A stretch of DNA of 30,544 nucleotides from a virus. The position numbers and the translations under genes were made by a program. Every line of letters starts with the position of its first letter. Position 1 is the stretch's first letter. The stretch covers positions 1 through 30,544 of the IMG/VR virus record IMGVR_UViG_3300047476_000884; one strand, given 5' to 3'. Below, piece by piece: positions 2 to 4,394 of the stretch. The notes below the pieces were generated by a model. It searched no databases. It saw only the letters and a program-made list of their open reading frames with translations, and was not told the DNA's origin.

Positions 2-160
2 CATGATAAAAGTTGGGAAAGCTATATGCGCGAGTGCATTGCCGCGCTAGTTACTTGCGATGAAATATTTATGCTAAAAAATTGGGAAACCTCCAAAGGC
101 GCTAAAATTGAATTTTACATTGCAGATGAAATGGGCATGAAAATTATATTTGAAAAATAA
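2..160 (+). CDS. DUF4406-like protein, C-terminal fragment
   Basis: The window opens inside this gene; 52 codons are visible before TAA. The readable part contains a DEIFMLKNWETSKGAKIE-type stretch followed by a short alpha/beta end. This strongly resembles the C-terminus of DUF4406 proteins, which have a nucleoside 2-deoxyribosyltransferase-like fold and are common small phage genes. The N-terminal half lies outside the window, so catalytic residues cannot be checked. It is read in the same direction as the next gene, but a promoter-like element follows it, so the next gene may have its own transcript. The family call rests on motif memory only. Confidence 0.65.
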   Translation, partial: HDKSWESYMRECIAALVTCDEIFMLKNWETSKGAKIEFYIADEMGMKIIFEK

Positions 161-166
161 ACCAAC

Positions 167-190
167 TATAAATAATTATACCTATATTTA
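167..190 (+). promoter_or_regulatory. Promoter with palindrome-like operator, copy 1
   Basis: TATAAATAATTATA (167-180) is followed two bases later by TATATTTA (183-190), a one-mismatch form of the Bacteroidota -7 box TAnnTTTG. No good -33 TTTG is seen at the right distance. The predicted RNA start is near 196, about 20 bases before the ATG at 216. The 14-bp element recurs at 2535 and 26357, each time at a promoter, so it is likely a shared operator. Confidence 0.5.
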
Positions 191-215
191 CACCCAAAAC
201 CAATATACAACAACA

Positions 216-2147
216 ATGAAATATCTATTTTTAAGCAAGTTGCACATCCGCGACTTTAAGAAAATCAATGATTTAGAGATTGATTTTGCACAACAAACAA
301 CCATTGCTGGCACCAACGGCGTAGGTAAATCGACCATTTTTGACGCTTACACGTGGTTGCTTTACGGCAAGAACTCGCATGACCAGCAGGATTTCAGCAT
401 CAAGCGCCTAGATGAAAACGGCAAAGTGATTCACAACCTAGTTGCAAGCGTGCGTGGTGTGTTTATCCTAGACGGTCAAGTAATCGAACTTGAGCGCCGT
501 TACAAAGAGAAATGGCAAAAGAAGCGCGGTAACGAGCATGAAGAGCTTACAGGCCATATAACCGAGTATTTCATTGACCAAATACCAAAGAGCAAGGCAG
601 AGTTTGACACCTACGTCAAAGGCATGATTTCCGACACTATTGCAAAGGTCATCAGCTCGCCGCTTTATTTCAATGAAAAAATGAAATGGCAGGAGCGCCG
701 CGAGATTTTAACTTCCATTGCAGGTGATACAACGCCCGAAGACGTGCTAAATTTTGCGCCTGACGAATTTAAATCCGCAAACGAACTACTTGCTTTACTC
801 GAGGCAAGAAAGTCGCTTACAGACGAAAAAACGCGCATTGCATCGGAACGCAAAAGATTGAAGGAGCAACTAGACGGCATTGCGCCAAAGATTGAGGAGC
901 TTACAAGCATGACCGTAACCGATTTGGATGCTACCGAGCTAAACGCCAAGAAAGCCGAGCTAAACGCAGCTAAAGAGCAAATCAACACACAGCTTGAAAG
1001 CATCGCCGAGCAAAACAAAGCCGAACAACAAAAGGTTATTGATAGCAACAACCAGCTTTACAAATGGCAAGATGAGTACACAAAAGCGAAACGCGACTTA
1101 CTCAAAGACCACAACGACCGCGCACAGGCGTATGAAAAACGCAAAGCGGAGCTGCGCCTAGAAATCCAAAAGATTGAATTTGCACTAAGCGAAAACGGCA
1201 GCGCTCAGAATCAAAACGAGGCGAATTTTCGAGTGCTTACGGAGTTGCACGCTAAGCTGAAAAAAACATACGAAGCCGAGAAAGCTAAGGAATTTACTTT
1301 TGTGGCTGAAAACTGCCCATGCTGCCAGCGTCCTATGGAAAGTAACGAGCAAGAGCAACTCGAGAAATATAACCTAGCTAAAGCCAACGCGATAAAACAA
1401 ATAGTTGCCGAGGCGCAGGATGTTAAAGTCAAGATGACTGAGTGTGTCGCAGTGCTTGATGCTTGCACAAAAAAACAAGCTGACCTTGCGGCACAACTAA
1501 CCGCAAAAGAAACCTACCTCAAAGAAGTACAGACCTCATTTATAGTCGAGCAAGAGCCAAGCGACACGCCTGACATGGTTGCATTGAAAAACGCCATCGA
1601 CAACCACAAGCCTTACACACCTGAGGCGGTTTGTAACAACGCATTGAAGCAAGAGCGCGAGCAACTAGATGAGCAAATCAAAGAGGTCGAGGCATCGTTG
1701 GTCAAGCTAGGCCACATTACCGAGATTAACACCCGCATTAATGTGCTATCAGAAAACAAGCGCGCACTTGCCCAGCAAATCGCAAGCCTGGAGCGCGTAG
1801 CCTTTCAAATTGACGCATACGAAAAAGCACACATTGAGCTAGTTGAAAGCCGAGTAAACGCGAAGTTTGCTATTGTAAAGTGGAAAATGTTTGATGAGCA
1901 AATAAACGGAGGTTTGGCGCCAACGTGCGAGGCAACGGTAAACGGAACGCCTTACAACGATTTAAACACCGCCATGAAAATCAATGCTGGTCTTGACGTA
2001 ATCAATGCGCTTAACTACCATTTCGGCATGTTTGCGCCTGTATTCATTGACGCACGCGAAAGCATTGTTGAGATAATCGAAACGGACTGCCAAGTAATTA
2101 GCTTGCAAGTTGACAAGGCGTTTAGTGAATTGACTGTAATTGTGTAG
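216..2147 (+). CDS. SbcC/Rad50-like AAA ATPase with zinc hook
   Basis: A 643-residue SMC-type ATPase. Walker A is GTNGVGKST (residues 32-40). Long coiled coils flank a CPCC zinc hook (residues 367-370), and a Walker B-like PVFID lies at 608-612. Proteins of this class use ATP to open and close around DNA ends, normally with an Mre11/SbcD nuclease. No SbcD-like gene is visible in this window. A longer open frame reaches back to 150, but I chose the ATG at 216. The family motif (LSKLHIRDFKK) begins there, the extra 22 residues look non-coding, and the predicted transcript starts near 196. Its position upstream of recT fits phage recombination or replication. SMC-type ATPase is near certain; the exact role is inferred. 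Confidence 0.85.
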   Translation: MKYLFLSKLHIRDFKKINDLEIDFAQQTTIAGTNGVGKSTIFDAYTWLLYGKNSHDQQDFSIKRLDENGKVIHNLVASVRGVFILDGQVIELERRYKEKWQKKRGNEHEELTGHITEYFIDQIPKSKAEFDTYVKGMISDTIAKVISSPLYFNEKMKWQERREILTSIAGDTTPEDVLNFAPDEFKSANELLALLEARKSLTDEKTRIASERKRLKEQLDGIAPKIEELTSMTVTDLDATELNAKKAELNAAKEQINTQLESIAEQNKAEQQKVIDSNNQLYKWQDEYTKAKRDLLKDHNDRAQAYEKRKAELRLEIQKIEFALSENGSAQNQNEANFRVLTELHAKLKKTYEAEKAKEFTFVAENCPCCQRPMESNEQEQLEKYNLAKANAIKQIVAEAQDVKVKMTECVAVLDACTKKQADLAAQLTAKETYLKEVQTSFIVEQEPSDTPDMVALKNAIDNHKPYTPEAVCNNALKQEREQLDEQIKEVEASLVKLGHITEINTRINVLSENKRALAQQIASLERVAFQIDAYEKAHIELVESRVNAKFAIVKWKMFDEQINGGLAPTCEATVNGTPYNDLNTAMKINAGLDVINALNYHFGMFAPVFIDARESIVEIIETDCQVISLQVDKAFSELTVIV

Positions 2148-2835: not shown

Positions 2836-3687
2836 ATGAACACAACAACGCAGCCAGCAGTGGCAGAAAAGGACATCACTACACAGGTGCTCCAAAAAGT
2901 GCAAGCCTTTGAGAAATCAGGCGAGCTAAGAATTCCAAAAGACTACTCACCAGAGAACGCGCTAAAAGGCGCAATGCTAGTCTTGAATGAGTTGAAAACC
3001 AAAGACGGAAGTAATGCTTTGCAGTATTGCTCAAAGACAAGCGTCGCACAGGCGCTTTTAAAAATGGTTGTCGAGGGTCTAAGCGTGCTTAAAAAGCAAG
3101 GGTATTTTATTCCTTACGATAAAGAGCTAACTTGGATTCGTAGCTATCAGGGGTCAATCGCTTTAGCTAAGCGAGTAGCTGAGGTCAAAGAAGTAAACGC
3201 GGTTGTCGTTTACCAAAATGATTTGTTTGAGTACGGCATCGACGTGAAAACGGGACGCCAAGTAATTTACAAGCACGATCAGAAACTCGGCAACATTGCT
3301 AACGATAAGATTATCGCGGCTTACGCAATTGTGATTTACAAAGATAGCTCAACCGATGCGACTATCATGAGCATGGACGAAATCCGCACAGCATGGAACC
3401 AAGGCGTGCCAAAGGGAAATTCACCAGCTCACAAGAATTTCACGCAGGAAATGGCAAAAAAGACGGTCATTAACCGCGCTTGCAAAACCCCTATCAATAG
3501 CTCTACCGATGTTATCTTGGTGGGCGGTTACGATGAGGAAAACGACGAAGCGCCAACGATTGACATTAATCATGAAATTGTTGAGGACACAGCAAGCCAA
3601 CCGATTGTATTTGAAATCGGAGAAGCGCCTGCAACGCCTTTGACAAGTGCGCGCCCGAGTGTTGAACCTATGGACTTCCCTGAGTAA
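2836..3687 (+). CDS. recT: RecT-family single-strand annealing protein
   Basis: A 283-residue protein with the RecT core: a SVAQALLKMVVEGLSV-type helix, the KQGYFIPYDKELTWIRSYQG strand pair, and the AKKTVINRACKTPINSS helix. RecT proteins bind single-stranded DNA and anneal complementary strands during phage recombination and replication. The acidic, proline-containing tail after about residue 235 is usual for the family. A RecE/YqaJ-type exonuclease partner is not visible in this window; the upstream SbcC-like ATPase and the downstream MBL-fold protein are the available partners. The stop overlaps the start of the next gene by one base. Confidence 0.95.
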   Translation: MNTTTQPAVAEKDITTQVLQKVQAFEKSGELRIPKDYSPENALKGAMLVLNELKTKDGSNALQYCSKTSVAQALLKMVVEGLSVLKKQGYFIPYDKELTWIRSYQGSIALAKRVAEVKEVNAVVVYQNDLFEYGIDVKTGRQVIYKHDQKLGNIANDKIIAAYAIVIYKDSSTDATIMSMDEIRTAWNQGVPKGNSPAHKNFTQEMAKKTVINRACKTPINSSTDVILVGGYDEENDEAPTIDINHEIVEDTASQPIVFEIGEAPATPLTSARPSVEPMDFPE

Positions 3688-4394
3688 TGAAAATCAACAT
3701 TATTTCATCCGGAAGCAAGGGCAACGCCTACATTATTGAGAAGAACAACACCGCGCTCTTAGTTGAGTGCGGTGTAAAGTTCTCCGAGATACAAAAGGCA
3801 GTAAATTTTAACCTCTTAAAAATAAAAGCAGTGCTCGTGTCTCACGAGCACCAGTGACAAGACCACTCGAAAGCATGGAGGCAAGCAGTAGGCGCAGGAA
3901 TACCAATGTATGCAAGCACAGGTACTTACGATGCGCTTAAGGTTGGTCCAGAGGATAGGATAGGCCGTTTAAATCAAGGCTATTTAAGGGAGGTTTTCGG
4001 TTTTCTTGTTGGTTCATTCAAAGCCAATCACGACGCAAAAGAGCCGCTTAACTTCATTATTGACCGCGTTCTTTTCATTACCGACAACTACAAACTGCAA
4101 TTTGATTTGTCATCTTTCAAGCTAACCTGCGTAATGATTGAAGCAAACTATTGCGAGGAGCTCATCAAAGGCAAGGCCGATGACTTTGTAAACAAGCGCC
4201 GCTTTCGCTCACACATGAGTTTTCAAACGGCTTTATTAACCCTAAAAACACTCGATTTAAGCGAGTGCAAACAAATCATTTTAATTCACCTTAGCGATGG
4301 GTATACGGATGAAAAACGCTTCATTCAGGACGCTGAAAAGGCTTTTGGGATTCCCGCCATTTGCGCTGATAAAAACCAAATTATTGAGTTATGA
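3687..4394 (+). CDS. MBL-fold hydrolase interrupted by an in-frame TGA (hop or pseudogene)
   Basis: The frame starts with ATG at 3687, overlapping the recT stop. It encodes an SSGSKGNAYII strand and LLVECG, then reaches SHEHQ followed by TGA (3855-3857). The same frame resumes as QDHSKAW and stays open to 4394. It carries the later MBL features: ANHDAKEPLNF (metal-binding HD) and ILIHLSDGYTDEKRF (last His). The expected HxHxDH motif is thus HEHQ-stop-QDH, six bases too long. Skipping TGACAA gives exactly HEHQDH and a protein of about 233 residues. Both halves look like good family members, so inactivation, if real, is recent. Without skipping, an ATG at 3906 gives a 162-residue fragment lacking the metal motif. 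MBL proteins beside recT are common in phages and are often assumed to be nucleases. Confidence 0.75.
3831..3860 (+). other. Hairpin plus CAG-TGA-CAA: candidate stop-hop signal
   Basis: GTGCTCGTG (3831-3839) and CACGAGCAC (3843-3851) form a perfect 9-bp stem with a TCT loop. The stem ends exactly at a CAG codon (3852-3854), then TGA (3855-3857), then CAA (3858-3860). CAG and CAA are both glutamine, so a peptidyl-tRNA could re-pair after the stop. Caution: the motif VLVSHEH tends to give near-palindromes, because GTG pairs with CAC and CTC with GAG. Confidence 0.5.

Follow-up and report, generated by a model that had tools for sequence, protein, structure and literature searches.

Ribosomes translating bacteriophage T4 gene 60 detach at a GGA codon that precedes a stop and resume at a matching GGA, and the refolding of a 5' stem-loop behind the ribosome drives this movement (PMC5009743; PMC11194080). 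The 50-nucleotide (nt) insert of T4 is thought to be protective against a homing endonuclease (PMC5009743). Synthetic 'stop hops' have been built in Escherichia coli (Weiss et al. 1987, cited in PMC5009743), and a 2016 recoding review gives no known occurrences of natural in-frame stop hopping (PMC5009743). Besides, the mitochondria of Magnusiomyces capitatus carry byps, short translationally skipped inserts that are proposed to be mobile and occupy 81 sites in 12 genes (PMC5009743). Here we describe a phage gene for a metal-dependent hydrolase of the metallo-beta-lactamase (MBL) fold, located in the IMG/VR record IMGVR_UViG_3300047476_000884 (positions 1-30,544; this whole stretch of 30,544 nt is referred to as the window), in which one stop codon falls inside the metal-binding motif. 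Judging from the sequence comparisons below, the best-supported reading is a programmed 6-nt in-frame bypassing by the ribosome, a natural stop hop, and we regard it as likely. The elements of the site are the following:

3687..4394, plus strand: MBL-fold metal-dependent hydrolase gene with one in-frame stop (reading frame; profile match of the N-terminal half; family via intact relatives)
3831..3851, plus strand: 5' hairpin GTGCTCGTG-TCT-CACGAGCAC, 9 bp, flush with the putative take-off codon (sequence)
3852..3854, plus strand: putative take-off codon CAG, Gln (reading frame)
3855..3857, plus strand: in-frame stop TGA, next base C, hence TGAC (reading frame)
3858..3860, plus strand: putative landing codon CAA, Gln, synonymous (reading frame)
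3861..3866, plus strand: GAC CAC, immediately after the landing codon, encoding Asp-His of the HxHxDH metal motif (sequence)

An initial annotation, made from the sequence alone, had proposed a programmed stop-codon hop or a very recent gene break at this place, and its description of the site proved accurate. The TGA is the sole interruption of the frame, the codons CAC GAG CAC CAG TGA CAA GAC CAC read HEHQ-stop-QDH base for base, with Gln on either side of the stop, and the stem is perfect (3831-3839 with 3843-3851, loop TCT at 3840-3842) and ends at the CAG. This is the only site in the window where a codon, a stop and a synonymous codon lie within a long open frame. The N-terminal half matches Pfam Lactamase_B, and the gene was assigned to PHROG 392 through its intact relatives, 14/14 of which matched phrog_392. 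Like T4 gene 60, the locus has a stop between two matching codons and, upstream of them, a 5' stem-loop, the latter in the window clade and six other lineages and weak or missing in five. Unlike in T4 gene 60, where 50 nt are bypassed and decoding resumes out of frame, only 6 nt would be skipped here and the frame kept; many lineages are involved, and neither a nascent-peptide signal nor a 3' stem-loop is known; the N-terminal part of the hydrolase is conserved in stop-free relatives too. Nothing special was detected among 3' structures past the landing codon, and the site matched no known RNA family. While the E. coli stop hops are artificial constructs, the hydrolase is a natural candidate, and it differs from the byps of M. 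capitatus in being confined to one site of one phage gene family and in not being mitochondrial.

The same insertion (a codon X, a stop, a synonymous X' and then DH) was found in 12 lineages, comprising about 20 phage records, at the same codon, so that the insert is far from being a peculiarity of the window. Searching with the part beyond the stop, we recovered 13 phage loci of close relatives: L001, L002, L004, L005 and L008 have the identical stop, and L003, L006, L007, L009, L011, L012 and the partial locus L010 have an intact HEHGDH or HEHLDH. The pattern HEH-x-stop-x-DH-x-K gave five further genes, four of them Leu-stop-Leu (L100, L101, L103 and L104) and one Gly-stop-Ser (L102). With tblastn against GenBank phages we identified the cultured Cellulophaga phages phi46:3 and phi18:3, which carry HGHQ-TGA-QDH (codons CAA TGA CAG) in a gene annotated as two coding sequences, and their relatives phi19:3 and phi13:2, which have HGHQDH without a stop. 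Two additional patterns yielded L121, L123, L127/L166, L149 and L165, and a GenBank faecal phage scaffold (L170) contains HKHL-TGA-LDH. Contig matches L105-L107 were discarded as chance matches without an open frame, and most matches to the Leu pattern are due to chance. An assembly error was rejected in view of the independent samples and the two cultured phages. We found no published account of this site in the part of the open-access literature that was searched.

Two types of site account for these cases, a Gln type (CAG/CAA-TGA-CAA/CAG) and a Leu type (CTT/CTC-TGA/TAA-CTT/CTA). The stop is flanked by synonymous codons in 11 of the 12 lineages, and the base 3' of it is C, again in 11/12. 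Among the six lineages found without requiring synonymy, five have matched flanks (the window clade, Cellulophaga, L100/L104, L101 and L103, not L102); for comparison, of about 46 in-frame stops elsewhere in the same contigs, 3 have matched flanks. Precisely the motif expected from a hop is encoded without a stop by the sisters phi19:3 (HGHQDH) and L110 (HEHLDH). As a side observation, three stop-free genes (L006 at 2943, L110 at 3991 and L116 at 1659) have Leu or Gln where nearly all others have Gly; they are perhaps former hop alleles after a six-base loss.

Regarding the part beyond the stop, we collected 83 distinct relatives without requiring a stop. It is full length in all of them (169-197 amino acids), and the in-frame stops present, seven, are every one at the motif codon. 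The ratio of nonsynonymous to synonymous substitution rates (dN/dS) in this part was 0.07 at a dS of 1.36 for the stop-bearing pair L100-L104 and 0.086 for the window and L002, values that fall within the range of stop-free pairs, and the metal-ligand positions past the stop are invariant. The relaxed 3' half that the initial annotation would have taken as a sign of a broken gene was thus not seen; dN/dS of 0.07-0.09 indicates purifying selection, and the open frame is under selection on either side of the stop. No intact second copy was found in any stop-bearing record, including the complete genomes of phi46:3 and phi18:3.

As for the hairpin, the initial annotation had cautioned that VLVSHEH tends to form palindromes by itself, but only 6 of 4608 synonymous recodings (0.13%) are equally stable. 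Among 2.9 million viral contigs, the 18-mer of the window hairpin was found 8 times, always in stop-bearing copies of the hydrolase gene. Seven lineages have stems of unrelated sequence at this position or adjacent to it, flush with the take-off codon in the window clade (GTGCTCGTG/CACGAGCAC), L100/L104 and L103 (ATGCTCGTG/CACGAGCAT in all three), L165 (ATGCTCGTG/CACGGGCAT), phi46:3 (GTGGCCG/CGGCCAC) and L121 (GTGCGAGTGT/ACACTCGCAC), and within one base of it in L123, where a long interrupted stem ends one base inside the take-off codon. The median flush-stem score was 23 for stop-bearing genes against 0 for stop-free ones (P about 2e-5), and a score of 23 is reached at 0.4% of the other codon boundaries of the same genes. 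An earlier energy scan with long arms had not separated the groups (P 0.08) because its constraint left the flush stem unforced. A change of the outer stem pair from G-C to A-T, which turns Val into Met in the protein, is compensated on the opposite arm, and in the stop-free sister L110 the stem is shortened by two synonymous changes.

Under the proposed mechanism, the ribosome would read up to CAG (Gln56) and meet TGA in the weak termination context TGAC. The peptidyl-tRNA-Gln would then release CAG, the mRNA would shift by six bases and the tRNA would pair again with CAA; the hairpin, refolding behind the ribosome, would probably pull the mRNA. Decoding would restart at GAC CAC, so that the product would contain HEHQDH with the metal site complete, and ribosomes that do not hop would produce a short inactive peptide. 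TGAC and TAAC are reportedly weak termination contexts in E. coli (Poole et al. 1995). The need of this weak context for a C after the stop may explain the restriction of the sites to Gln and Leu codons.

One could argue that the gene is simply broken, the insert being inactivating and either hitch-hiking or fixed in a dispensable gene. Downstream ATGs in the 3' open reading frame (ORF) of some phages and the patchy distribution of the alleles fit this idea, but the confinement of the stops to one codon, their synonymous flanks, their presence in 12 lineages that include cultured phages and the purifying selection past them do not, and we hold a broken gene to be highly improbable; recurrence and 3' selection likewise disfavour the very recent break of the initial annotation. 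Ordinary readthrough, which would yield HEHQ-x-QDH, perhaps with another function, agrees with the C after the stop in 11/12 lineages and with the weak contexts mentioned above. It would, however, leave two extra residues within the zinc motif, it needs neither synonymous flanks nor a 5' hairpin, the stop may be TGA or TAA, and no suppressor tRNA was found in the window or in the stop-bearing relatives searched, which makes it even less credible. An altered genetic code was rejected, as TGA or TAA serve as ordinary stops elsewhere in the stop-bearing contigs; in the window, 11 of 37 long ORFs end in TGA, as does the interrupted gene itself. A tRNA-Trp (CCA) gene lies upstream of recT in a stop-bearing relative (L099, 12510-12582, minus strand). 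No better than readthrough fares a switch at the DNA or RNA level, in which slippage between the repeated codons would add or remove six bases (phase variation) and the gene would be active solely in genomes with the deletion: some stop-free sisters do retain the Q or L codon (phi19:3, phi13:2 and L110), yet the direct repeats have only 2-3 identical bases, what sets the sisters apart from the stop alleles is the replacement of 60-120 nt instead of a clean six-base deletion, and stop-bearing pairs show 3' selection. The least probable explanation in our view is a split enzyme, made as two polypeptides by termination and re-initiation and then assembled. The two-gene annotation in phi46:3 and phi18:3 would suit it, but Asp-His follows the stop immediately with no start codon before the pair, and downstream start codons are variably placed or missing.

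The programmed hop is favoured by the recurrence at one codon, the synonymous flanks, the 3' purifying selection and the hairpins. Several observations weigh against it. L102 (GGT-TAA-AGT, Gly-stop-Ser) is the sole imperfect case, its landing codon being unmatched; the patterns behind L121, L123, L127, L149 and L165 demanded synonymous flanks; and the searches covered only part of the hydrolase family. A strong stem is not present in L101, L102, L127 and L149, none is visible by eye in L170, and stop-free phi19:3 keeps its stem. Therefore, the hairpin would be a common aid and not a universal requirement. In addition, some of the 3' divergence could predate the arrival of the stop by cassette exchange, which weakens the dN/dS test.

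Such exchange concerns a short tract around the site, delimited by the identity comparison of stop-bearing and stop-free relatives:

3795..3866, plus strand: allelic cassette including the hairpin, the stop and the landing codon

Stop-bearing relatives are 95-100% identical to one another in the 57 nt that precede the take-off codon, against 61-74% identity with stop-free relatives; the 99 nt further upstream are 87-98% identical whichever the allele class. These two classes next to a shared upstream region indicate that a short tract with hairpin, stop and landing codon is exchanged between phage backgrounds. In the tree of the C-terminal part, stop-bearing and stop-free genes are interleaved, with 12 parsimony changes over the family, at least 6 of them forced by well-supported branches. 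L100 (stop) and L110 (stop-free) are about 97% identical over 5 kb, but their identity drops to 60-67% for the 120 nt from the motif. A similar local replacement separates phi46:3 (stop) from phi19:3 (stop-free). Quite different recT genes of two types stand beside closely related hydrolase genes, the RecT of L002 and L165 being longer than and divergent from that of the window (2836-3687), which indicates that whole neighbouring genes are exchanged too. Recombination driven by RecT could be the maker of such mosaics.

The initial annotation had also pointed to a CAGTG direct repeat as a possible origin of the insert. The repeat is present (3829-3833 and 3852-3856), but it is restricted to the window clade and leaves the Leu-type and Cellulophaga cases unexplained. 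With regard to spread, two stop-bearing relatives have an HNH_3 endonuclease gene in the interval from recT to the interrupted gene, an arrangement that recalls T4 gene 60 with its neighbouring homing endonuclease:

L123, 5840-6409, plus strand: HNH_3 homing-type endonuclease with NUMOD4, directly before the interrupted hydrolase gene
L101, 6629-7189, minus strand: HNH_3 homing-type endonuclease, with recT on one side and the interrupted hydrolase gene on the other

No HNH or GIY-YIG gene was found in the window. By coordinates, 0/50 stop-free records have such an endonuclease within 1 kb; set against the 2 of about 12 stop-bearing lineages, this is suggestive only. Co-conversion of flanks accompanies homing (PMC2988022). 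The insert would likely have arisen, or been disseminated, as a small bypass element that homing endonucleases would have favoured. We propose, tentatively, that the natural in-frame stop hop could be a mobile bypass element of ~70 bp that shields the metal-motif site from homing endonucleases and is hidden from the protein by the ribosome, and that the enzyme may depend on slow termination.

As a conserved candidate, the system comes with natural controls, since there are cultured sister phages whose genes are nearly the same and differ in the presence or absence of the six bases. It would permit tests of ribosome release at a stop and of the spread of bypass elements as homing-resistant alleles. 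Because such genes are split or dropped by gene finders, as in phi46:3 and phi18:3, further cases of this kind may hide elsewhere.

Finally, we analyzed the enzyme family and the gene neighbourhood. Two further genes of the window belong to the recombination cluster:

150..2147, plus strand: AAA/SbcC-like ATPase, with which the recombination cluster begins (profile match)
2836..3687, plus strand: RecT single-stranded DNA-annealing protein, overlapping the start of the interrupted gene (TAATG; profile match)

RecT is present in 19/19 records checked, which fits a role of the hydrolase in recombination. The AlphaFold2 model of the intact relative L007 (predicted local distance difference test score 89) matches YhfI (6kns/6knt), Apyc1 (7u2r) and RNase Z (1y44), a group in which HxHxDH binds two zinc ions (PMC9117128). 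The modelled hydrolase would thus share the MBL fold and the motif with RNase Z and the class II phosphodiesterases Apyc1 and YhfI; it differs from them in its sequence (14-17% identity only) and in adjoining recT. The match to Apyc1 has a template modelling score of 0.62 for the fold and an E of 0.95 for the sequence, and two Porphyromonas phage homologues are annotated as Apyc1-like.

Upstream of recT, the noncoding segment 2683-2821 (plus strand) is 83-86% identical to noncoding DNA of phi19:3 and phi13:2. It matched nothing in Rfam or with ARAGORN, occurs in L001 and L011, is absent from L002, L005 and L008, and is unlinked to the stop allele. The segment contains two tandem hairpins resembling tRNA T-arms, GCAG-TTCGATT-CTGC and GGGG-TTCGATT-CCCC.
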